From a virus: a stretch of 37,368 bases of DNA. The notes beneath the pieces were generated by a model that searched no databases, had not been told where the DNA came from, and saw only the letters and a program-made list of their open reading frames with translations. The translations under genes and the position numbers were made by a program. Shown here piece by piece: positions 1 to 9,686 of the stretch; the first letter of the stretch is position 1, and every line of letters begins with the position of its first letter. The DNA lies in the IMG/VR virus record IMGVR_UViG_3300048924_000580, positions 1 through 37,368 of that record. The stretch is one strand, 5' to 3'.

Positions 1-1152
1 ATGGCGACTATCAGGGCAAGAAAACTGGCAGATGGGAGCGTGAGCTACACGGCTCAGATCCGCATCAAGCGCGACGGAGTGCAAGTTTACCAAGAGAGCC
101 AGACCTTCGCCCGAAAACAGGCTGCCCAAGCCTGGGCGCGTAAGCGCGAGTCAGAGCTCGATGAACCTGGCGCGATCGAGCGCGCGAGCCGCAAGGGCGC
201 GACGCTCAAAGAAATGACCGAACGCTACCTGGTAGAGGTCGAGAAAGCCCGGCCGTTGGGTAAGACCAAGCGCGCGACACTCAATGCCATTTGTGAGACG
301 TACCTCGGCGGGCTGACCGACACGGACATCAATACTCAGTGCTTGGTCGATTTCGCGCTTTGGCGGATGAGCAAGGAAGGTGGCGGGGTTCAGCCACAAA
401 CCGCCGGCAATGACCTGGCGCACCTCGGTGCTGTTCTAGCGATTGCCAAGGATGCGTGGGGCTACCAAGTGGACCCGCTCGCCATGGGCGGAGCCCGGCG
501 TGTACTGCGCAAGCTGGGTTACAACCTGAAAAGTCGTGAGCGCGACCGCCGGCCGACTTTGGACGAGTTGGGAAGGGTGCTGACGCACTACCAAGACATG
601 CAGGCGAGGCGCCCAACTGTCATCAATATGCTGAAAGTCGTGGGCTTTGCCCTGTTCTCTACGCGCCGGTTGGATGAAATAACCCGTATTCGCTGGGCCG
701 ACGTCGACGAGCATGGTCAGCGAGTGCTGGTGCGCGACATGAAGAACCCCGGTCAGAAGATCGGCAACGATGTCTGGTGTTACCTGCCGGACGAGGCGTG
801 GCAGATTCTCCAGACGATGCCAAAGGCCGGCGACGACATATTCCCCTACAGCCCTGAATCTATCTCCACTTCCTGGACGAAAGCCTGCAAGTTTTTGAAC
901 ATCGCAGATCTGCACTTCCATGACCTTCGCCACGAAGGCATCAGCCGTCTGTTCGAAATGGACTGGGATATCCCGCGTGTGGCGAGCGTCTCAGGGCATA
1001 GGGATTGGAACTCGATGAGGCGCTACACCCACCTGCGGGGGAAGGGTGATCGTTACGTAGGGTGGGAATGGCACGAGAAGATGTTGAGGGCGCCCGTCCA
1101 ACTGGGCGCCGCATCAATGAAGTGGCTCAGTAGGCGGGTTTTATCCCGTTGA
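1..1152 (+). CDS. int: Prophage integrase (tyrosine recombinase)
   Basis: This 383-residue protein should catalyse site-specific integration and excision of the prophage. The N-terminal ~60 residues look like an arm-type DNA-binding domain, residues ~65-170 like a SAM-like core-binding domain, and ~185-360 form the catalytic domain. The catalytic set is visible: Arg223 in TRRLDE, probable Lys248, His307-x-x-Arg310 in HDLRH, His333 in GHRDW and the nucleophile Tyr342 in RRYTHL. It begins at base 1, so its promoter and the left attachment site lie outside the window. Its 3' end overlaps the opposing prtN-like gene by 26 bp. P2-family prophages carry int at one end, which fits. The family call is secure; the target site is not known. 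Confidence 0.96.
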   Translation: MATIRARKLADGSVSYTAQIRIKRDGVQVYQESQTFARKQAAQAWARKRESELDEPGAIERASRKGATLKEMTERYLVEVEKARPLGKTKRATLNAICETYLGGLTDTDINTQCLVDFALWRMSKEGGGVQPQTAGNDLAHLGAVLAIAKDAWGYQVDPLAMGGARRVLRKLGYNLKSRERDRRPTLDELGRVLTHYQDMQARRPTVINMLKVVGFALFSTRRLDEITRIRWADVDEHGQRVLVRDMKNPGQKIGNDVWCYLPDEAWQILQTMPKAGDDIFPYSPESISTSWTKACKFLNIADLHFHDLRHEGISRLFEMDWDIPRVASVSGHRDWNSMRRYTHLRGKGDRYVGWEWHEKMLRAPVQLGAASMKWLSRRVLSR

Positions 1153-1402
1153 GCTGGTTGTGCTCTTTAACCGCGGCCGCGCGCTGTAGATCTAGGTAAG
1201 CGGCCAGGTCGGTGAGGTGGATGCCCTTGGCCGACTTCTGGCTCGGTTCTAGGCGGGTAATTGGTAGCTTGATCTGACCACTCATCACCTTGCGCTGGAA
1301 CATTTCCGGCGTTAGGTGCGTGAAGTAATCCCGGCACACCAGTTCCAGCGAGATAATCGCCTGGCCGTCGTATTGGGCCATCAGAATAAAGGCTGTGTTC
1401 AT
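1127..1402 (-). CDS. PrtN-like pyocin activator family protein
   Basis: The 91-residue product resembles the PrtN pyocin-activator family of Pseudomonas throughout: an N-terminal MNTAFILMAQYDGQ block, a central YFTHLTPEMFQRKV helix and the stretch PSQKSAKGIHLTDLAAYLD. In P. aeruginosa PrtN is a DNA-binding activator of pyocin genes, induced when PrtR is cleaved after DNA damage. Here it is the last gene of the leftward early block and converges on int. The RBS GGGAG lies 6 nt before the ATG. It may activate phage genes or the host's pyocin genes; which of these applies is inference. Confidence 0.85.
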   Translation of the reverse strand: MNTAFILMAQYDGQAIISLELVCRDYFTHLTPEMFQRKVMSGQIKLPITRLEPSQKSAKGIHLTDLAAYLDLQRAAAVKEHNQLNGIKPAY

Positions 1403-1421
1403 GGCTAACTCCCTGGCGGCT

Positions 1422-1673
1422 TCACATCCGAAACGATTGATGAATGAACCCTGGTTGGGCCGTTTGCTCTCCAGGTTGAGCGGAGGCAGCCTGGATCTCG
1501 CAATCGAACTCGTGCAGTTCGCGGTTGGGGGCGGTCAAGGCTTCGGTGAGACCAGGCACCGTGTTGATGCACTGCTGATATGCGTCAGGTCCCACCCAGC
1601 GCTGGAGCGGGATCACCTGACAGTCAGTGCGATCGACATTGGTGCATAGGTACAGCAAGAGGAAGACGTTCAT
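1422..1673 (-). CDS. Hypothetical phage protein, 83 aa
   Basis: I do not recognise a function. The start overlaps the stop of the preceding 20-codon ORF as ATGA, so translation is probably coupled. The first ten residues are hydrophobic but short for a signal peptide. Three cysteines lie in the first ~40 residues (in LCTNVDRTDC and QQC), followed by a charged, Gln- and Ala-rich tail. It sits between two small early genes and the prtN-like gene and is presumably on the same leftward transcript. The overlap and lack of a better frame support it as a real gene. Confidence 0.6.
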   Translation of the reverse strand: MNVFLLLYLCTNVDRTDCQVIPLQRWVGPDAYQQCINTVPGLTEALTAPNRELHEFDCEIQAASAQPGEQTAQPGFIHQSFRM

Positions 1674-1732
1674 AGAGCCTCCTGCTGCGTAACACTCATG
1701 GCGTTGCCAATAAGTTCTTCTGATATTTGCAT
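1670..1732 (-). CDS. 20-residue early ORF (possible leader peptide)
   Basis: The frame reads MQISEELIGNAMSVTQQEAL and stops. It begins at an ATG carried by the same hairpin-RBS module that precedes three other genes here (AAAGGAGAAGCACCATG). It ends in an ATGA overlap with the 83-residue gene. The strong conserved RBS plus the overlap are the main evidence that it is translated. It may be a leader that couples translation of the next gene, or the remnant of a longer gene. Confidence 0.5.
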   Translation of the reverse strand: MQISEELIGNAMSVTQQEAL

Positions 1733-1772
1733 GGTGCTTCTCCTTTGGGGCGATGGGGAGTTGCAGCTCCCC
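1730..1772 (-). promoter_or_regulatory. Intercistronic hairpin + RBS module, copy A
   Basis: On the - strand a 6-bp stem (GGGGAG with CTCCCC, 1755-1772) encloses the loop CTGCAA and is followed after four bases by CCCCAAAGGAGAAGCACC and the start codon at 1732. It begins 22 nt after the stop of the 67-residue gene. There is no T-tract, so a simple terminator is unlikely. See copies B, C and D. Confidence 0.75.
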
Positions 1773-1793
1773 GTTGAACGCCCGTTTTCCAGT

Positions 1794-1997
1794 TCAGCGC
1801 GCGAAGCGCCGAGGCTTGTTCTGCTTGGCTGCGGCCTGTTCGGCCATGAATGCTGCCCACTCCGCTGTTTTGCGCTGTTGGCGGGTCTTGCTGCAGCGTT
1901 GGTGGGTGCGGGTGGATCTGGCCTTGCCGCAGATGTCACAGCGGCTCGGCAGGTCCAGGCGATGGCTGGCCATCGCCGGGCGGGAGCGTTCGGCCAT
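1794..1997 (-). CDS. Small basic Cys-containing phage protein, 67 aa
   Basis: A CDICGKARSTRTHQRCS segment gives two close cysteines and a later His/Cys pair that could bind zinc. The C-terminal half is Arg/Lys/Gln/Ala-rich and probably helical. The ATG at 1997 is chosen because it follows the upstream stop by two bases (TGAACATG) with GGAG 9 nt upstream; an earlier start at 2015 would overlap the previous gene. Function is unknown; a small nucleic-acid-binding protein would fit the composition. Confidence 0.6.
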   Translation of the reverse strand: MAERSRPAMASHRLDLPSRCDICGKARSTRTHQRCSKTRQQRKTAEWAAFMAEQAAAKQNKPRRFAR

Positions 1998-1999
1998 GT

Positions 2000-2263
2000 T
2001 CAGCGCTCTCCGCACAACATGCGGGTGAGCGCGTTCGGTTGACCGTCTGGTGTCAGCTTGTCGAGCGGGTGGGTAATGCGACGGCCGTTGGCTGCGCGCA
2101 AGGTCGCGACGTTGCCGTTTATCTCGACGATAACGCCTTTGCGCGCGCTAAAACGGTAGCTGCGGCCGCCGCCGCTGATTGCGACGTAGCTAACCTTGTC
2201 GCCGACAGCGAGTGGGGTTGTGGTAGCCTCTGCGGTGCCGCCTTGGGGTTGATTCACTTGCAT
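2000..2263 (-). CDS. Hypothetical early phage protein, 87 aa
   Basis: Residues ~18-70 alternate hydrophobic and polar residues (VGDKVSYVAI, KGVIVEINGNVATLR, RRITHPLDKL), which suggests a small SH3-like beta barrel; that fold reading is inference. It starts at the ATG of hairpin-RBS module B with a strong AAAGGAG. Its stop is two bases from the start of the 67-residue gene, so the two are probably co-translated. No enzymatic motif is visible. Confidence 0.65.
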   Translation of the reverse strand: MQVNQPQGGTAEATTTPLAVGDKVSYVAISGGGRSYRFSARKGVIVEINGNVATLRAANGRRITHPLDKLTPDGQPNALTRMLCGER

Positions 2264-2316
2264 GGTGCTTCTCCTTTGGGGTGGTCGGTGTCGAGGGATT
2301 GCAGTCCCTCGGCACC
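2261..2316 (-). promoter_or_regulatory. Intercistronic hairpin + RBS module, copy B
   Basis: The stem is 12 positions per arm (2287-2298 with 2305-2316). Eleven pair; the remaining one is A.C on the coding strand and would be G.U if read from the other strand. The loop is CTGCAA and the AAAGGAGAAGCACCATG block follows. It starts 17 nt after the stop of the 98-residue P-loop gene. It is the longest of the four stems. Confidence 0.8.
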
Positions 2317-2332
2317 ACTCTTTCGGAACAAT

Positions 2333-2629
2333 TCAGCCGGCGATGCGAACCAGGAAAATTTCCAGGTCCTTCAATCCATCGTTCTCGTCGTGAGCTGTCT
2401 GCCACTTCAATACTTCGTCGATTTGCTGGCGGGTGCAGTCATCCACGAGCAATGTTTGTTCTCCGCGCTCAATCCTGACTTCCATGATCGAAAGCAGGCC
2501 CGCCTGGGCGTATGCATCCGCGTGGATGATGCTGGTGTGCTTTCCTTGCGCGTTTCGCTGCTCCTCGATCTGCCTTAGTTGGCGGGTCTTTCCCGTCGCC
2601 CTGGCGCCTTTGATGACCTTGATATGCAT
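2333..2629 (-). CDS. Small P-loop NTPase-like early protein, 98 aa
   Basis: A Walker A motif GARATGKT is seen at residues 8-15 and a Walker B-like strand TLLVDDC at 59-65. At 98 residues it is far shorter than a normal AAA+ or ABC domain, so it may be a minimal P-loop fold or act with a partner. It starts at hairpin-RBS module C. A second small P-loop protein lies in the lysis block (22552-23031) with a similar TGKT-R-L pattern. It lies on the early transcript downstream of the primase-helicase. Its role is unknown. Confidence 0.7.
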   Translation of the reverse strand: MHIKVIKGARATGKTRQLRQIEEQRNAQGKHTSIIHADAYAQAGLLSIMEVRIERGEQTLLVDDCTRQQIDEVLKWQTAHDENDGLKDLEIFLVRIAG

Positions 2630-2673
2630 GGTGCTTCTCCTTTGGGGTTGCCCAGGCGTTGCAGCACCTGGGC
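2627..2673 (-). promoter_or_regulatory. Intercistronic hairpin + RBS module, copy C
   Basis: Arms 2650-2658 and 2665-2673 form a 9-bp stem that includes one G.U wobble when read as coding-strand RNA, closing the loop CTGCAA. The block ending in AAAGGAGAAGCACCATG follows. The hairpin begins 8 nt after the stop of the 42-residue gene. Confidence 0.8.
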
Positions 2674-2680
2674 GGTTGGG

Positions 2681-2809
2681 TTAACGGACGATGGCCAGCA
2701 GTACGTCCGGCGCGAGGTTGCCCAGGACGATCAGGACAGCCAGTGCCGCGGCACTGCAGGTCAACGTGATCGCGTTGTCACTCAAGGTCGGTTCGTTGTC
2801 GTCTTGCAT
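2681..2809 (-). CDS. Small single-pass membrane protein, 42 aa
   Basis: Translation gives an acidic N-terminus (MQDDNEPTLSDN) followed by a continuous hydrophobic stretch, residues ~13-41, ending in Arg-stop; it would form one transmembrane helix. It starts at the ATG of hairpin-RBS module D and ends with TAA at 2681-2683. It is below most gene-finder length limits, but the conserved RBS and clean membrane-helix composition support it. Small membrane proteins in early operons may affect host physiology or exclusion; that is speculation. Confidence 0.65.
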   Translation of the reverse strand: MQDDNEPTLSDNAITLTCSAAALAVLIVLGNLAPDVLLAIVR

Positions 2810-2851
2810 GGTGCTTCTCCTTTGGGGTGCCGAAGCGTTGCAGCGCTTCGG
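2807..2851 (-). promoter_or_regulatory. Intercistronic hairpin + RBS module, copy D
   Basis: A perfect 8-bp stem (CCGAAGCG with CGCTTCGG, 2830-2851) closes the CTGCAA loop and is followed by the conserved RBS block and the ATG at 2809. It begins 10 nt after the primase-helicase stop codon. Confidence 0.8.
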
Positions 2852-2860
2852 TGATGGGAT

Positions 2861-5587
2861 TCAGGGCTGGAATACCCAGCAGCGAATGGTTTTCGGTTTG
2901 TCGAACGCGTCCAGCAACCGGGCTGAGTTGACGCCCTTGTTCGACTCCAGAAACTTGGGTGACTTGCTCGTTTTCAACAGGCGCTTTAGATCGCTGAGCG
3001 CAGGCACCTGCTGGCGTTTGTTGGCAGCCATCTCGACGAATTCATTGAGGTTCACGGCGATTAACCCGTCCTTGCGCGCATGGTTGAGCGCGCCTTTCTC
3101 ATCCATGCCGTTCAGGAATTCGTACAGGTCCCAGAATTCGCGCACGGTCGGGTGATCGGCGTTGATGGCCTGCTGGCGCTCCAGGGCCATGCGGTTGACC
3201 TCGGCGTGTGCTAGGGCCTTCCGGTGTTCGCCGAGGGGCACCACGTCTGCCAAGGCATCCACCAGGCTGCGCAGTTGGGCATGGTTCTTGGCGATACGAA
3301 CGGTACGGACGCCGGGCTGGGCCAGTAGCTCCTGCTCGTAGCCGGAGGTGTTTTCCTCCATCAGGCGCATCGTGTTGGCTTCGCGTTGCAGTGCCTTGAC
3401 CAGGAAGCCGCTGATGTTTTCCATCGGCATGCGTTCCAGTTGCTCGGCGAACTGCTTGGTTTCCGGGGTGTGGTGCTCCCGGGTCAGGTGGACGTGGCAC
3501 AGCCGCTGCAGGATCGGCTCCGAGGCATTCACCGGGTTGTTCTGAGCGATCAGCAGGGCGGCGCGGAAGGGCGGTTCGTGGGTGTCGTTGCCGTTGTTCT
3601 TGACGCCGGTAGAGCGAACGCTGCGGCCGTTGTAGGCGGTTTTCAGTTCGTCCCAGTCGAAGTGTTTCACCGGCTGGCCTTCCTTTTGCTCACGCTCCGA
3701 CTCAATCAGCACTACCGGCAGGTTGCTGACCTGGGAGAAGTTGCGCGCACGGCTGGCGGCAGTCGCTTTGGATGGGTCGAAACCTTCGTAGTCGGTACGG
3801 CCGACCAGTTTCCACAACAGCTCCACCAGGGTGGTTTTACCCGAACCGGCTTCCCCTACCAGCTCCAGGAACATCAGTGATTTATGGATCTGGCGGATCT
3901 GCTCGGCGTGCAAGGCACCCAGCCACCAGGCCAGCACTACCAGACCCTGCACGCCAAAGCAGCGCCAGTAGATATCGAACCAGCCTTCGTTGTAGGTGTT
4001 GAGGTCGGTATTGATGTGCAGCACCGGCGACTGGCTCTGCGACTTGATGCTCAGTTTTCCAAGGTCGAAAAAGTCTTCCTTGTTGCGCATCTGGATCTTC
4101 CCGCCGAAGAAGGCGAGGTCGTTGAAGACGTAGGCTCCGTGCTCGCGGCTGTAGCCGATCCATTCGATGGTGTTCACGGTTTTCAGGCAATCGAGCTGGG
4201 GCGCGAGAATCCGTTTCAGCTGTTGGGCGCTGCCCTCGAACATTGCACCGTTGGAGACGTTGAGCAGGCGATTGGTGAACTCAGGGGCCGAAGTGAGTTG
4301 TTTGGCCGTGAAAGTGCTTTTGATGACTGGCCCTTGAGGGCGCTCGATGCGGAAGTAGTACCAGGCCTCATCGGTCAGGTCGTTGCGCATGTAGTACAGC
4401 GCTTGGAAATTGCAGTTGGCGATGCTGGTCACAGAGCCAGATTGACGCAACGCTTTGTGCCGGCGCTGTTTCTCATTGAGCAACTGATCTTCATGGTTGT
4501 TTGAGCTCTCCAGATCGCTCATGGCGCGGTCATACCGATCAAGATCCAGCCGAAACCAGTACAGGCGCTTGCGGAACGAAAAGTGGAATTCCTTACGCTC
4601 GTCGCGCAGGTAGATGAGAAAGCCCTTTTCTTCAGCTGAATCGGCGAGCAGCAGGTCGCCCTGGTGAAGGGCCTCTTCCAGATCTTGCTGGATGCGTTCG
4701 GCCCGTTCGTCCTCACCTTCGATAGATTTCCAGCGTAGGTGCAGGTCGTTCCAATCGACTTTTTTGCCATTGGGCTGGGGGATCACTGCTGCCTTGCAGG
4801 TGAAGCCCAGGTCGCGTGCTTCCTTCGCCCAGCGGCGCATGTTGGCCTTGGCGACAGGCTCGTTATCGAGCGCCCACACCAGGCGCGGAAGAGGTCTGTC
4901 AGCGTCGCGGCGCAATTTGATCAACGCTTTGAGGGAATCGATAGGGCAGGGGGCGCTGGACATCATGGAAACGGCCGAGATGTCGTTGTGGCCCAGGGCA
5001 ATGGCGTCAAAGATCCCTTCGTTAACCCAGAGCTCGTCAACTTCCAGCAGATCCAGGCTTGGTGGGCACCACCAGACGCCTTTGTAACCTGGCTGGCCCT
5101 CGCCGGTGGGGCGGAAGCGCGCCTTCATCTTTCCGAATCGCTCGGGCCGATCGATCAGGCGCTCCCAGTAGCCGCCCTTCTCCAGTGGGAAGCGCACCGT
5201 GGCGCTGCCGATGTTGAGGCGGCTGTCCCAGTAGTGTTCCTGGGTGAACCAACCGGCGATCAGCTCAAACTTAAAGCCCCGCGCAAACTCAAGGTAGGCG
5301 CGCGCCGTGGCGAGCGGGTTGTCCGGCGTCGACGGGGCAGTCTTGCTCCAGTCGTTGAACAGATCGTCGTAGACGTCTTTTATATGGACACGGTGGTCGC
5401 ACTTTTCTGGTCGTCCGCAAATCAACGTCCAGGGTGAGTCGTAGAAGGTGTACAGGGTCTTCTGGCCGCAACTTGGCGCAGGGCAAACACCCTTGCGCAT
5501 GTAGTTGGTGCCGGGCATGTGCTTGAGCTGGTAATCCCGCTCAATGCGTTGGATGACTTCGGCTCGCAGCCTATGTTCCATTTCCAT
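2861..5587 (-). CDS. Phage primase-helicase (zinc finger, Toprim, P-loop ATPase)
   Basis: This 908-residue protein is probably the phage replication enzyme. Residues 35-65 hold a CHC2-like zinc ribbon (Cys35, Cys40, Cys57, Cys63, His65). A Toprim-like region follows with Glu190 in NEGIFDA and Asp241/Glu243 in ALDNE. The C-terminal half has a Walker A motif GEAGSGKT at ~578-585 and a hydrophobic strand VVLIES at ~625-630 that may serve as Walker B. It would prime and unwind DNA in the cytoplasm. P2 and phiCTX instead use the rolling-circle protein A, so this early region is not P2-like. The start ATG at 5587 has no strong RBS; an ATG two codons later is possible. Confidence 0.85.
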   Translation of the reverse strand: MEMEHRLRAEVIQRIERDYQLKHMPGTNYMRKGVCPAPSCGQKTLYTFYDSPWTLICGRPEKCDHRVHIKDVYDDLFNDWSKTAPSTPDNPLATARAYLEFARGFKFELIAGWFTQEHYWDSRLNIGSATVRFPLEKGGYWERLIDRPERFGKMKARFRPTGEGQPGYKGVWWCPPSLDLLEVDELWVNEGIFDAIALGHNDISAVSMMSSAPCPIDSLKALIKLRRDADRPLPRLVWALDNEPVAKANMRRWAKEARDLGFTCKAAVIPQPNGKKVDWNDLHLRWKSIEGEDERAERIQQDLEEALHQGDLLLADSAEEKGFLIYLRDERKEFHFSFRKRLYWFRLDLDRYDRAMSDLESSNNHEDQLLNEKQRRHKALRQSGSVTSIANCNFQALYYMRNDLTDEAWYYFRIERPQGPVIKSTFTAKQLTSAPEFTNRLLNVSNGAMFEGSAQQLKRILAPQLDCLKTVNTIEWIGYSREHGAYVFNDLAFFGGKIQMRNKEDFFDLGKLSIKSQSQSPVLHINTDLNTYNEGWFDIYWRCFGVQGLVVLAWWLGALHAEQIRQIHKSLMFLELVGEAGSGKTTLVELLWKLVGRTDYEGFDPSKATAASRARNFSQVSNLPVVLIESEREQKEGQPVKHFDWDELKTAYNGRSVRSTGVKNNGNDTHEPPFRAALLIAQNNPVNASEPILQRLCHVHLTREHHTPETKQFAEQLERMPMENISGFLVKALQREANTMRLMEENTSGYEQELLAQPGVRTVRIAKNHAQLRSLVDALADVVPLGEHRKALAHAEVNRMALERQQAINADHPTVREFWDLYEFLNGMDEKGALNHARKDGLIAVNLNEFVEMAANKRQQVPALSDLKRLLKTSKSPKFLESNKGVNSARLLDAFDKPKTIRCWVFQP

Positions 5588-5593
5588 CGTGGC

Positions 5594-5827
5594 TTACTTC
5601 GCTTCGTCGAGACTATGTTTCAGGGCGCCAATCAGGCGTTTTTGCGCAGCCATGACCGGAAAGGCCACGAGCAGCGAGCCGTGCCGCAGGCCTTCGGGAA
5701 TCATGCGAAAGCGGTCGTCATACCAGTGCTCGTTGAACTGGGCGCTGTAGTCAGCCCGGAGTGCTTGAAGCAGGGCTTCGGCCTGTTCGCGGGGCAGTTT
5801 TGCGGTGATGGCGATGTCGATTTCCAT
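5594..5827 (-). CDS. Hypothetical early protein, 77 aa
   Basis: The ATG at 5827 is chosen because GAGGTGG lies just upstream; an in-frame start ten codons earlier lacks such a site. The product begins MEIDIAITAKLPREQAEALLQAL, a beta strand then a helix, and has a YSAQFNEHWYDDRFR segment in its middle. It ends 7 nt before the primase-helicase start, so they share a transcript. No known family is recognised. Confidence 0.65.
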   Translation of the reverse strand: MEIDIAITAKLPREQAEALLQALRADYSAQFNEHWYDDRFRMIPEGLRHGSLLVAFPVMAAQKRLIGALKHSLDEAK

Positions 5828-5903
5828 GGTCCACCTCAGATTTCGGGCAAAGCTCACCCAAACCCACAGGACGCGGGGCAGGGCGGGGTGTTTTAAATGG
5901 GTG

Positions 5904-6275
5904 TTATTGAGGGTGCGGCTTGAGAGCAGAGTCGCGCCGGGTGAGCAGTGTTTGAGGCAGAAGTCTTGCCGGAACTGGGTAGCGCAGATCGGCCCGGGTA
6001 TCGATCAGATGCACGACCTTGCAACCAGGACTGGAGCCCCAATCGATACCAATCCATTTACGCTGCTGGATCACCTGCAGCTCGGTCCAGGCGTTGTGCA
6101 CCAGCTGTTCAGCCATGAATACCGGGACTTCTAGGGCGGTCGTGAGGTGTCGGACGCAGTTGTCGTAGAGCCTGTCGGAATCCACCAGATACTGCGCTTC
6201 ATGCCGTTGCAGATAGGCAAATGCCGCCCGTTGCATGCTGCTGCGGTAGTCATGGGGCAGGTGTTCGTGATTCAT
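5904..6275 (-). CDS. Hypothetical early protein, 123 aa
   Basis: The start at 6275 overlaps the ogr stop as ATGA and has GGAG 8 nt upstream; a GTG at 6284 is the alternative. The N-terminal half is helical with many His and Tyr residues, and the middle has WIGIDWGSSPGCKVVHLID, which looks like alternating strands. No catalytic motif is identified. It is part of the tightly overlapping leftward early operon. Confidence 0.65.
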   Translation of the reverse strand: MNHEHLPHDYRSSMQRAAFAYLQRHEAQYLVDSDRLYDNCVRHLTTALEVPVFMAEQLVHNAWTELQVIQQRKWIGIDWGSSPGCKVVHLIDTRADLRYPVPARLLPQTLLTRRDSALKPHPQ

Positions 6276-6562
6276 GGCGCACACTCCATTTCCATTTGGT
6301 CGAGCAGATCGGGTTGATCGTTGGCGGTCTTCATTGCCGCACGGCGTAAGGCGATGTCGGCGACCGGAAGGCGCACGGATGGGTTAGCCATGCCGCTGGG
6401 GCTCATCTCGTGGGTCATCTCGAATTCAGCGCGTACTGACCAGCCACAAGCCTCGTTGGTGCACTGCAGGTAGGCCACCCGCAGAAAAATGTGGGTGCCC
6501 TCGCTGGTGCGGATACGCATGCGGCTGAGGCAGTGGGGGCAAACGAGCTTGTAAGTACTCAC
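6272..6562 (-). CDS. ogr: Ogr/Delta-like late-gene transcription activator
   Basis: The first 40 residues carry the Ogr/Delta zinc finger: Cys8 and Cys11 in CPHC, then Cys34 and Cys39 (QCTNEACGW), with the typical Arg-rich linker and a Tyr before the second pair. In P2 and 186 this family activates late promoters by binding a dyad about 55 bp upstream of the transcript start and contacting RNA polymerase alpha. At 96 residues it is somewhat longer than P2 Ogr (72). Matching dyads are visible upstream of O/P, FI and V. It overlaps both neighbours by 4 bp, so it is made early. In P2 ogr sits beside gene D; here it lies in the early operon. Confidence 0.9.
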   Translation of the reverse strand: MSTYKLVCPHCLSRMRIRTSEGTHIFLRVAYLQCTNEACGWSVRAEFEMTHEMSPSGMANPSVRLPVADIALRRAAMKTANDQPDLLDQMEMECAP

Positions 6563-7032
6563 CCTGCAACCTCCTTGCTGTAGAGCTGGATGGTGGCTAG
6601 GACCTCCGCATAGCGTGCCGACATGTAGTTGAGCAGGGCGCTGACAATGGCATCGGCTTCATGCCTTTCAATAATGCCGTCGTCGAGTGCCTTGGCTATC
6701 GCTTGATCCACTCGGCCGCGCTTGGCAGCAGCCTTGACTGACCGGTTGTACAACTCGACGTTGTCCAGATCCGTCGACGCGGTCAGCGGGACGAACATGC
6801 CGCCGTATTTGGCCGCGATGTAGTCGGGTAGAAAGGTCGTACCTGCGACTTGCTCAAGACGATGAATGTGATCGTCACTTAGGGGGCGGCTACCGGCGTT
6901 TTCATAGGCTTGGTTATCGAACTTCTTGAGCCTCATACCGAGATCAACGGCGGCGTACGGGCGGCCACCCGGGTAGCTGCAAATGACTGCGCTGACGACG
7001 TCTCTTCTGGTGCCTAGAACTGGGCGTTTCAT
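6559..7032 (-). CDS. YmfL/CII-like phage regulatory protein, 157 aa
   Basis: The ATG at 7032 is chosen for the AAGGAG upstream; longer in-frame starts to 7140 would run into the 3' part of the upstream regulator gene. The sequence RRDVVSAVICSYPGGRPYAAVDLGMRLKKFDNQAYE followed by PLSDDHIHRLEQVAGTTFLPDYIAAKYGGMFVPL is typical of the YmfL/phage CII (CP76) regulator family. These are DNA-binding proteins that tune the lysis-lysogeny decision. It overlaps ogr by 4 bp. Confidence 0.75.
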   Translation of the reverse strand: MKRPVLGTRRDVVSAVICSYPGGRPYAAVDLGMRLKKFDNQAYENAGSRPLSDDHIHRLEQVAGTTFLPDYIAAKYGGMFVPLTASTDLDNVELYNRSVKAAAKRGRVDQAIAKALDDGIIERHEADAIVSALLNYMSARYAEVLATIQLYSKEVAG

Positions 7033-7072
7033 CTTCTGGTTTCTCCTTGGAGTCATCGCCCCTACAGTGAAT

Positions 7073-7333
7073 TTACAAAGCCGGAATGGAAGGTCGTCCG
7101 GCGTTTTCAGCGAGGATTCCGGGTAAAACCTCTTTTTCAATCACCCGGGATAAGTCCTGCAGGATCTGGAAGGTCAGGCGCCCGCGAGGCAGCGTTTTGT
7201 GTCCCGCCCAGCGTTGAACTACTTGCGTCACGGTTCGCACCTCGTAGCCATGGCTGATGGCGAACTGGCGGAAGTTGCTCCCTCGCTCGATCAGTCGTGC
7301 CTGGATCTGGCGCTTTTCCATGGCTTCGCTCAT
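7073..7333 (-). CDS. Cro-position regulator, BcepMu gp16 family
   Basis: An 86-residue protein whose FRQFAISHGYEVRTVTQVVQRWAG stretch forms a helix-turn-helix, followed by LPRGRLTFQILQDLSRVI, as in the gp16-type phage-associated proteins. It is the first gene of the leftward operon, immediately downstream of the promoter at 7378-7405 and divergent from the CI-like repressor. That is the position of Cro or Cox. The start has AGGAA ~11 nt upstream, a somewhat long spacing. Confidence 0.8.
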   Translation of the reverse strand: MSEAMEKRQIQARLIERGSNFRQFAISHGYEVRTVTQVVQRWAGHKTLPRGRLTFQILQDLSRVIEKEVLPGILAENAGRPSIPAL

Positions 7334-7377
7334 GGTTGGAGTGTTCCTAGTTGGTTAAGATGTACCTGTTTGTTCGC

Positions 7378-7405
7378 AGTATACGCACTCAAACGGGTGC
7401 GTCAA
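7378..7405 (-). promoter_or_regulatory. Leftward early promoter
   Basis: On the - strand TTGACG (7405-7400), a 16-bp spacer and TATACT (7383-7378) form a near-consensus sigma70 promoter pointing to the gp16-like gene. Transcription would start about 7371, leaving a leader of roughly 38 nt. The whole spacer is covered by the inverted repeat at 7383-7402. Confidence 0.75.
7383..7402. promoter_or_regulatory. Probable repressor operator
   Basis: ACGCAC-N8-GTGCGT is a perfect 6-bp inverted repeat spanning the interval between the -35 and -10 boxes of the leftward promoter, in the gap between the two divergent regulators. A dimeric repressor bound here would block polymerase. Only one clear copy is seen. 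Confidence 0.7.
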
Positions 7406-7422
7406 CCGGATCATATGAAAAA

Positions 7423-7830
7423 ATGAGTATAGCTACGCGCCTGCGCAATGTTCTCGACGAGAAAGGACTCTCCATAAAGGAGGCCTCTAAGGTCGTTGGC
7501 ATCCCTTATAGGACGCTCCAAAACTACCTTTTGGACGAGCGCGAGCCCAATGCAAAGGCTATGACAGCGTTTCGCACTCATTTGGGTATAAGTCTTGATT
7601 GGCTGCTTACAGGGGAGGGGTCTATGTTCCCGGGGCAGGGTGGTGAGGTAGCTGGAGTTCAAACGACGAACATGCAGGAGGAGGCCATTCTTGAGCTGTT
7701 TCGTTCGCTTGGAGAGGCCGGAAAAAGAGAGATACAAAGCGCTGCTGAGGAAAAGAAACGTTTAATGGATGTCGAGCAGCGCCTCAAGGAGTTGACTGAA
7801 TCTCTTGCTGACACTAAACGGCCGGCATAG
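7423..7830 (+). CDS. CI-like phage repressor without peptidase domain
   Basis: The 135-residue product has an N-terminal helix-turn-helix (residues ~15-36, LSIKEASKVVGIPYRTLQNYL) followed by GISLDWLLTGEG, the signature of phage CI repressor N-domains. The C-terminal ~50 residues are charged and helical, probably a coiled coil. No S24/LexA-type Ser-Lys peptidase is present, so direct RecA-stimulated self-cleavage is not expected. ATG 7423 is the first in-frame start with the helix-turn-helix at normal distance; the ATG at 7415 meets a stop at once. It should bind the inverted repeat at 7383-7402. Confidence 0.85.
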   Translation: MSIATRLRNVLDEKGLSIKEASKVVGIPYRTLQNYLLDEREPNAKAMTAFRTHLGISLDWLLTGEGSMFPGQGGEVAGVQTTNMQEEAILELFRSLGEAGKREIQSAAEEKKRLMDVEQRLKELTESLADTKRPA

Positions 7831-7913
7831 TCTGCATCCATTAAGTTCGGATCAGTCAGAAGGGCAGCTCGGGGCACCAGTTGCAGCGGTCGGCGACAAA
7901 GCTAAGGACGGTT

Positions 7914-8372
7914 ATGAAAGTGGGTCTTTTTTTAAATGCGGGCGTCTGTCTGGCGGTGCTGACTTTGTCTGCATCTGCATCCGCGGCTACCTGTGACAGT
8001 ATCCTGGCGGCGCTCAAGCAAGAACGTCACCTGACCCAAGTTAGGCAAACCGAAGGCAATCGAACTACTGAATATCGGGACGGGCCGAACATTGCCCTGT
8101 CAGTTAGTTGTGGTGTCGGAAAACCTAACCTCGCGATCACTTGGGATGGTCCTGAACCTGATTCGCAATATTACGACCTGATCGGTCGGGCTGGCAGTCT
8201 GGTTTCCTCTCGTTCTGCCGCTGGTATCGTCAAAGCATCAAAGCAATGCCGTAGTAGGGCTCTCAAGGACGATGGGGAAATTGCAACGATCGAGGAAGAC
8301 GATCTCGCCCTTGAATGTCAGGCATTCGTCCGTGACGGTGGCAGCACGACCATTTCTGTGTTTGCCGAATAA
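7914..8372 (+). CDS. Secreted Cys-containing protein beside repressor, 152 aa
   Basis: Residues 1-24 form a clear signal peptide (MKVGLF..., a hydrophobic core, then ASASAA before TCDS). The mature ~128 residues contain several cysteines (TCDS, SCGV, QCRS, ECQA), suggesting disulphides in the periplasm. The ATG at 7914 has AAGGA just upstream; an earlier ATG would hide the signal peptide. It is co-oriented with the repressor, 83 bp downstream, and converges on gene D with a 9-bp gap, so it is probably expressed in the lysogen. No family is recognised; a lysogenic-conversion role is inference. Confidence 0.7.
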   Translation: MKVGLFLNAGVCLAVLTLSASASAATCDSILAALKQERHLTQVRQTEGNRTTEYRDGPNIALSVSCGVGKPNLAITWDGPEPDSQYYDLIGRAGSLVSSRSAAGIVKASKQCRSRALKDDGEIATIEEDDLALECQAFVRDGGSTTISVFAE

Positions 8373-8381
8373 CGCAGTTAT

Positions 8382-9686
8382 CTAAGATGCGGGCACGCCT
8401 TTTGCGGGTTTTTTTGATTCCTCTTTCGCCGCCTGCAGCCGCTTCCACTCCCGATCAACCGCACGTTTTGCGGTGTGCTTGTTGGCGTAAAGCCACAGCA
8501 GGCGCTTGGGTTTCGTCTGGTCACCGGCCGTCCTGGTCTTCTCTTTCCCGGTTTTCTCGTCGCGGTAGTAGGCAATGATGCCGGTGTAGTCCTGCTGGTT
8601 TTCTTCGGCCAAGCCTTCGACTGTGTCCTCTGGCAGCTTGCTTTCCAGGTCCAGGCTTACGGTGTAGCCATTGTCAGCGCTGAGGGTGTGCTGCACGTTG
8701 CCGCCGTACCAGATGATTTCGTCAATTTCGGCTTTCACGCCCTGGAGGGTGTAGGTGAGTTCGGGTATCAGATCTGGCCTGCCTCGGGCCAGGGTGTAGC
8801 TGAGTGTTGCGCTCCCACGTTGTAGTCGATTGAGCTCGGCTCGGGCAGCACGTAGCGCGGATTGCCTGTCGCTGTAGGTGTGACGGAGATCCTTGAGGTT
8901 TTCACCTCCGCCGGCAATGGCTTCCTGTTTTTTCGCGCTGTTCACGTCGTAGAAGTACGCCCGAACCCCGCCATAGCTGTCGCGTTCGGCTTGCAGATAG
9001 CGGTGTGAGTCTCCGTCGGAGCGAGTCAGCGTGATGTGTGGCAGATCCAGACCGCTGGCTGTCTTGCCTCCACCCGCTGGAATGCACAGCAAGCAGCCGG
9101 CCTTGACGCTGATCACCGCGTCAAAGTCTTCACCCAGGCGGCTGATCAAGTTGGCGTCCGACTCATTGGCTTGAGTCAGGTGAGGGATGGGGAGTCCATC
9201 GAGTGCGCCGGCGATAGTCGCTGTAAGGCCGTTGCCTACGGCGATATCGCCGAGGATATCCCCCAGGGTTTTGTTGCTCCAGCTGCGCTCGCGCTTGGTC
9301 TTCAGCCCTTTGCGCAGGTCTGCTGATCGAGCGCGGATGCTCAGCACATCGGGGGCGCCGCTGTGTTCGGTTTCGTCGACGGTGTAGGTTCCTTTGTCGA
9401 CCAGGCCTGTGTCGCTCCAGCCAAGCCAGAGGCGCACCACTGCGCCTTTTGGTGGGATCGCTAATAGCCCGTCGTGATCGCTGAGGGTGATGCTGAGTTG
9501 ATCGGCTTCGATTCCCCGGTTATCGGTCAGATCCAGGCTCAACAATCGGGGACTGATCAACTGAGCAATATCATTGCCGTTCACGGTCATGCGAAACGCA
9601 GGAACGGCATAGATCGCGTCGCGCTGATACTGCTCGGCAGTGTCCCGGAGATAAGCAGTCACACGGGAAATTGCGGCATCGATCAT
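8382..9686 (-). CDS. D: Late control / baseplate hub protein gpD
   Basis: A 434-residue member of the P2 gpD family (P2 ~387). The order of blocks is typical: RLLSLDLTDNRGIEADQLSITLSD near the N-terminus, then VRLWLGW, VDKGTYTVDETEHSG and NESDANLISRLGEDFDA. gpD is the hub that links spike V to the tail tube. The C-terminal ~70 residues are Lys/Arg-rich and extend beyond the core. It overlaps U by 4 bp and is the last gene of the FI-FII-E-T-U-D operon. Confidence 0.93.
   Translation of the reverse strand: MIDAAISRVTAYLRDTAEQYQRDAIYAVPAFRMTVNGNDIAQLISPRLLSLDLTDNRGIEADQLSITLSDHDGLLAIPPKGAVVRLWLGWSDTGLVDKGTYTVDETEHSGAPDVLSIRARSADLRKGLKTKRERSWSNKTLGDILGDIAVGNGLTATIAGALDGLPIPHLTQANESDANLISRLGEDFDAVISVKAGCLLCIPAGGGKTASGLDLPHITLTRSDGDSHRYLQAERDSYGGVRAYFYDVNSAKKQEAIAGGGENLKDLRHTYSDRQSALRAARAELNRLQRGSATLSYTLARGRPDLIPELTYTLQGVKAEIDEIIWYGGNVQHTLSADNGYTVSLDLESKLPEDTVEGLAEENQQDYTGIIAYYRDEKTGKEKTRTAGDQTKPKRLLWLYANKHTAKRAVDREWKRLQAAKEESKKPAKGVPAS

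Follow-up and report, generated by a model that had tools for sequence, protein, structure and literature searches.

In the viral DNA analysed here, a virus record of 37,368 bases that is referred to over its whole length as the window, four small genes are located downstream of the primase gene on the minus strand, and each of them is preceded by a hairpin and then by the sequence AAAGGAGAAGCACCATGCA. This arrangement raises the question of whether the hairpins represent a selected structure and, if so, what they might do at the starts of these genes. Several features of the window are typical of a P2-like temperate phage: an integrase (1-1152), an Ogr/Delta-type zinc finger, CP76 as a CII-like regulator, and a Toprim primase of 908 aa that shares 51% identity with its counterpart in phage Dobby of Pseudomonas aeruginosa (Peduoviridae, Citexvirus). 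The window phage is a P2-like (Peduoviridae) Pseudomonas phage. A sigma-70-like promoter (TTGACG-16-TATACT) is present at 7378-7405 on the minus strand, upstream of the early operon and opposite the repressor gene. The primase of GenBank entry OR820920, which is named Bacillus phage vB_BpuM-ZY1, is 46% identical to the Pseudomonas-type primase of the window, and the host label of this entry may merit a check.

Hairpins, start blocks and small genes in the window

The pattern CTGCAA-N(4-30)-CCCCAAAGGAGAAGCACC has four exact matches in the window, all on the minus strand, and none in 100 shuffles. This bears out the first-pass annotation, in which each of the four small-gene starts had been placed behind a hairpin with a CTGCAA loop and an identical start block (Table 1). 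The stems differ from copy to copy, yet their arms pair with the one G.U and the one A.C exception noted previously (U.G in hairpin 3, C.A in hairpin 2). The hairpins indeed follow the preceding stop codons at short spacing, but the measured distances are 7-21 nt rather than 8-22 nt. The reported absence of T-tracts also held: a terminator scan gave no intrinsic terminator at the four sites, and the T-tract that joins a GC hairpin in such terminators is missing from all of them. A role in transcription termination is therefore rejected.

Table 1. Positions of the hairpins, start blocks and small genes in the window.
Feature	Position	Strand	Description
Hairpin 4	2830..2851	-	CCGAAGCG-CTGCAA-CGCTTCGG, 8 bp; 9 nt past primase stop; covariance model score 65.7 bits
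Start block 4	2805..2823	-	AAAGGAGAAGCACCATGCA: SD, start codon 2809-2807, first bases of codon 2
42-aa ORF	2681..2809	-	hydrophobic stretch; behind hairpin 4
Hairpin 3	2650..2673	-	GCCCAGGTG-CTGCAA-CGCCTGGGC, 9 bp, one U.G; 7 nt past previous stop; covariance model score 65.7 bits
Start block 3	2625..2643	-	AAAGGAGAAGCACCATGCA
98-aa ORF	2333..2629	-	P-loop-like; behind hairpin 3; phrog_7795
Hairpin 2	2287..2316	-	GGTGCCGAGGGA-CTGCAA-TCCCTCGACACC, 12 positions, one C.A; 16 nt past previous stop; covariance model score 63.5 bits
Start block 2	2259..2277	-	AAAGGAGAAGCACCATGCA
87-aa ORF	2000..2263	-	recurrent N-terminus MQVNQPQGG; behind hairpin 2; phrog_3728
67-aa basic protein	1797..1997	-	CX2CX8HX2C and Arg/Lys-rich helix; stop 1794-1796; phrog_10699
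Hairpin 1	1755..1772	-	GGGGAG-CTGCAA-CTCCCC, 6 bp; 21 nt past previous stop; covariance model score 63.2 bits
Start block 1	1728..1746	-	AAAGGAGAAGCACCATGCA
20-codon ORF	1670..1732	-	behind hairpin 1; end overlaps ATG (1673) of 83-codon ORF 1422-1673

The 42-aa ORF had no match in Pfam or PHROG, and the 98-aa ORF showed a weak match to AAA_14 (E 7e-4) that was below the cut-off. The overlap of the 20-codon and 83-codon ORFs suggests that these two genes may be translationally coupled. Among the relatives, the longest stems are retained at the site of hairpin 2. Comparison of Rfam covariance models with positions 1000-8000 of the window gave no match up to E = 1.

Base pairing in the stems is selected

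The folding energies of the four copies as single sequences are modestly better than those of shuffles, with z values of -1.4 to -2.6. The main evidence for structure is the covariation across relatives, more than the folding energy of these four copies. In 30 non-redundant hairpins, 81.3% of the stem cells were paired versus 55.1% in shuffles, and 67 cells had changed on both sides versus 25.9. The covariation score of these hairpins was 0.689 as compared to 0.213 after shuffling, and none of 500 shuffles reached the former value. When the arms were slid against each other, only 30-43% of the cells were paired (around 40% for a slide of one base). Likewise, pairs 2-6 were formed in 80-95% of 298 distinct sites versus 43-86% with the arms re-dealt, and the loop-closing pair was G-C or A-T in that orientation (purine-pyrimidine) at 284 of the 298 sites. 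Since the pairing exceeds that of both shuffled and slid controls, we conclude that it is selected, as had been proposed from the window alone. Among the internal exceptions in pairs 1-5, G.U was seen 27 times and A.C 30 times; outside the site before a zinc-finger/KOW-like gene the counts were 17 and 11, and the excess of A.C is mainly due to one recurrent mismatch at that site.

Distribution of the element among Pseudomonas phages

Scanning IMG/VR with the CTGCAA pattern identified 115 stretches with 151 distinct sites. A second loop, CGGCAA, was revealed by a scan for the start block that left the loop unspecified, combined with reading of the upstream hairpins, and a scan for this loop gave at least 120 stretches. 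The best hairpin at 616 distinct start-block sites had the loop CTGCAA in 189 cases and CGGCAA in 164, while any other loop was seen at most a few times; CGCCAA represents a rarer third class. The CTGCAA loop, previously described as invariant, is so within the window phage, whereas relatives use CGGCAA and rarer variants.

Altogether, phage contigs with related elements number in the hundreds, and about 8% of the sampled Pseudomonas genomes contain such elements. Of 299 such genomes, 13 contained CTGCAA elements, 12 contained CGGCAA elements and none contained both, with usually two to four elements close together. The hairpin arrays were encountered almost exclusively in Pseudomonas phages and prophages; outside Pseudomonas, the bare 17-mer gave scattered matches, mostly without such a hairpin. 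The covariance search that the first-pass annotation had called for did find homologues: the model (R1) retrieved all four copies of the window together with about 90 strong matches in 62 sources, most of which had been picked by primase similarity and not by the hairpin. Some of the searched loci come from contigs that also went into the model, and the search is thus not a fully independent test. No R1 matches were obtained in the Halomonas, E. coli, BIBS67, PAJU2, Smp131 and UFJF_PfPro stretches.

In more distant relatives, the site that precedes the zinc-finger/KOW-like gene has kept its stem but has another loop, which is TTACAG in UFJF_PfPro and CGCCAA in five loci (L537, L538, L543, L548 and L602). 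The same stem with TTACAG, TTGGCC, TTGCAG, TTCGCAC or TTCGTAC loops was seen in L425 (~8040-8095), L582 (9026), L572 (9455), L586 (9046) and L571 (9043), TTGGCC being the loop of L582 and TTGCAG that of L572. A weaker CGCCAA hairpin, read by eye, precedes CAGGAGAGAACCATGCAA in the Stenotrophomonas phage Smp131. These distant relatives appear to carry one element rather than an array, and we infer that, in the lineages with arrays, a single ancestral hairpin may have been multiplied to serve as a tag. Decayed copies were also encountered. At the first post-primase site of L550, L539 and L540 (near 8715-8760), a CTGCAA-, CCGCAA- or CAGCAA-like remnant and the start block have been kept while the paired stem has been lost. 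In L068, the hairpin before the 42-aa gene is chimeric, with arms seemingly from two elements, and the start codon is ATA instead of ATG; this copy resembles a recombinant that has decayed.

Loop and start block are properties of the genome

The first-pass annotation overlooked that the identity of the loop is a per-genome property. Loops were compared in 117 genomes that carry two or more elements and differ in their hairpin sets. A single loop was used throughout in 112 of them, and the pairwise concordance of loops within genomes was 0.951 versus 0.494 after shuffling (shuffle maximum 0.605). Three of the five non-uniform genomes contain single point variants (L348, L352, L357), and the other two have one CTGCAA among CGGCAA loops (L454, L470). 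A further apparent case of mixed loops, L046, was rejected as an artefact of a CGGCAACC tandem. In the loci picked by their primases, where any hexaloop was read, each of the 30 loci that had at least two hairpins showed only C[T/G]GCAA with the classes unmixed, save for one CAGCAA copy; the opposite strand of these loci, which served as a control, showed nothing comparable. Closely related primases can nevertheless be accompanied by different loop classes, and some 13 changes of class were counted on the primase tree. In the pairs examined, such a change mostly involved replacement of the whole downstream region. Shared ancestry of blocks therefore explains part of the uniformity of the loops.

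The start block behaves in the same manner. It reads AAGGAGAGACACC at every copy in Dobby-type phages and AAGGAGAAACGA- at 3 of 3 copies in L568. It is conserved from the SD through ATGCA, and thus into the coding sequence, in genes that encode unrelated proteins, and this conservation exceeds the needs of SD pairing. The base before AAGGAG is mostly A in CTGCAA genomes and mostly C in CGGCAA genomes. Pairing of the loop with this base (T-A, G-C) was considered, but it would comprise just 2 bp and some CGGCAA sites have A, so that the preference was treated as a lineage effect. A kissing interaction, in which the palindromic UGCA of one loop would pair with another loop or with the AUGCA at the start, was likewise considered; it is weakened by the fact that CGGCAA and CGCCAA phages keep AUGCA.

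A possible role in translation initiation

The position of the element at gene starts after stop codons argues for translation initiation, and of the functions offered by the first-pass annotation, translation control would fit best. We tentatively propose, with a confidence that stays just short of an even chance, that hairpin and start block together form a cis-acting element, repeated across the early accessory operon of P2-like Pseudomonas phages, that would serve translation initiation and be read by a trans-acting factor. The element would comprise a hairpin with an exchangeable stem and a fixed hexaloop (CTGCAA in the window), a C-rich linker and the fixed start block. As the loop and the start block are uniform per genome despite the variable stem and linker between them, and beyond what copying of whole elements would give, the simplest reading is that one factor reads both of them in the mRNA. 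The stem would then serve to display the loop, and loop and start block would be recognised together by a single factor, most likely an RNA-binding protein encoded by the phage, whose specificity differs from genome to genome. Such a factor might coordinate the translation, or the protection, of all tagged genes at once, by either activation or repression. The tagged sites of L550, L539 and L540 that have no stem are a point against this model, as are the five genomes with non-uniform loops and the lack of a preference for G.U over A.C in the stems. Because the same joint is found at every gene, the block would also serve as a junction at which accessory genes can be swapped without loss of control.

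More doubtful, though still worth considering, is the extended proposal that the exchangeable accessory genes are under the post-transcriptional control of a phage-encoded RNA-binding protein whose loop specificity can switch, such that entering genes would join the regulon and the loop and its reader would co-evolve. The 67-aa zinc-finger protein (Table 1) is a weak candidate for the hairpin-reading factor. Its AF2 model (pLDDT 78) has a long Arg/Lys-rich helix, and the protein is found in 70% of the primase loci with several hairpins, in 43% of those with one and in 7% of those with none. It was set aside as an established reader, since homologues also occur in PAJU2-type phages, where the region examined gave no R1 match, no residue among the homologues tracks the loop class, and no structural match to the protein was found. 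Proteins of phrog_10699 are widespread in Pseudomonas phages, and the PAJU2-type homologue is encoded directly after replication protein P.

Alternatively, the mRNA architecture could suffice without any factor, the hairpin shielding the start block from upstream sequence or protecting processed mRNA ends, and the loop being kept for stability. GC-rich, stable stems directly past stop codons are consistent with this idea, as is the openness of the SD, which was 0.601 for the native sequences and 0.577 with a shuffled 5' arm (P = 0.001). However, this difference is very small and is not seen at the AUG, conservation of the start block goes past the SD requirements, and a purely structural loop gives no reason why the copies of one phage should have CTGCAA and those of another CGGCAA. 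We regard this explanation as rather unlikely.

Could the element simply be a recombination joint, with loop and start block acting as short homologies that promote the exchange of cassettes, so that conservation would reflect exchange and not regulation? Exchange is evident in 287 pairs of sites that have the upstream sequence and both arms in common ahead of unrelated genes, in 218 pairs that share the gene and the 3' arm and differ in the 5' arm and upstream sequence, and in the identical copies of window hairpin 1 ahead of three different ORFs in relatives. Exchange alone, however, does not produce compensatory changes in stems, nor would it homogenise the loop and start block and leave the intervening stem and linker variable, or tie the element to translation starts. 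The recombination seam suggested in the first-pass annotation thus finds support as a secondary effect and is insufficient as the sole explanation, because it leaves the covarying stems and the genome-uniform loops unexplained; the probability of the joint as the whole answer is low.

We also give little credence to a host factor or host small RNA as the reader, to which the phages would adapt their loop and block. The occurrence of the arrays almost exclusively in Pseudomonas phages and prophages and the lack of any of the 299 genomes with both loop classes are in line with such a reader. The start block moreover has no antisense match elsewhere in the window, so that a phage-encoded antisense RNA is not evident. 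Yet chance alone predicts the absence of overlap between the classes (about 0.5 genomes), and the occurrence of different loop classes next to closely related primases speaks against host adaptation. An element acting at the DNA level (a cruciform, an N4-type single-stranded hairpin promoter or a protein-binding site) is very improbable: covariation by itself does not separate RNA from DNA and G.U is not preferred over A.C in the stems, but the element has one orientation relative to the genes and lies directly upstream of SD and start codon, its loop has six bases whereas N4 promoters, which are read by a virion RNA polymerase, have a 4-5 nt stem and a 3-nt loop (PMC3715699), and the longest ORF of 912 aa leaves no room for a 3500-aa virion RNA polymerase. 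Target hairpins of CsrA/Rsm differ in having GGA in the loop, which here is present only in the SD and absent from the loops, and the place of the hairpins beside the RBS argues against elements of the lambda nut/boxB type, where boxA lies beside boxB and an N-like protein acts.

Comparison with known systems and implications

Lambdoid phages have boundary sequences, which are short conserved joints between exchangeable genes; the role as a joint is alike, but in the present phages the joint also holds a covarying hairpin and the RBS. Phage T4 reportedly contains many intercistronic CUUCGG hairpins, in which the stem varies and the loop stays the same, as Tuerk et al. are said to have described in 1988. 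The UUCG tetraloop of these hairpins is of exceptional intrinsic stability, and they are not known to have a fixed start block. A fixed loop on variable stems is thus common to both systems, but the hexaloops described here (CTGCAA/CGGCAA) are not C(UUCG)G and vary between phages, not within one. In T4, the phage proteins RegA, RegB and gp43 act at many early translation starts (PMC3014915). The sites of RegA, however, overlap with the AUG and have no constant sequence, RegB cleaves GGAG, and no such protein has been identified in the phages studied here.

The closest precedent is provided by the SAS/ESAS elements of cluster K mycobacteriophages (PMC3203893) and cluster EF Microbacterium phages (PMC7302621). 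Both systems have over-conserved repeats, all in the same orientation, at the RBS position of some non-structural genes; a second element lies immediately upstream, and the consensus is specific to the lineage. The ESAS consists of 17-bp inverted repeats with conserved half-sites and a variable spacer, for which the authors saw little support for RNA pairing (PMC3203893; PMC7302621), whereas the stems described here vary and covary around a constant loop. The sequences are also unrelated, with AAAGGAGAAGCACC in the present phages and a SAS consensus of GGGATAGGAGCCC (PMC3203893). Our literature searches, which had most subscription journals outside their coverage, found no description of the present element. 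What looks new is a start-associated element that combines a covarying stem with a per-genome constant loop, the loop resembling a tag for a putative factor.

The hairpins offer a clean set of natural covariation data on an element linked to start sites, and elements of this class have been known in actinophages for more than a decade without a mechanism. If the proposed reading by a trans-acting factor is true, temperate phages can run a regulon at the level of translation with an addressable tag, and newly acquired small genes would fall under phage control at once. Orthogonal RNA-protein pairs would then also be available from the CTGCAA, CGGCAA and CGCCAA classes.
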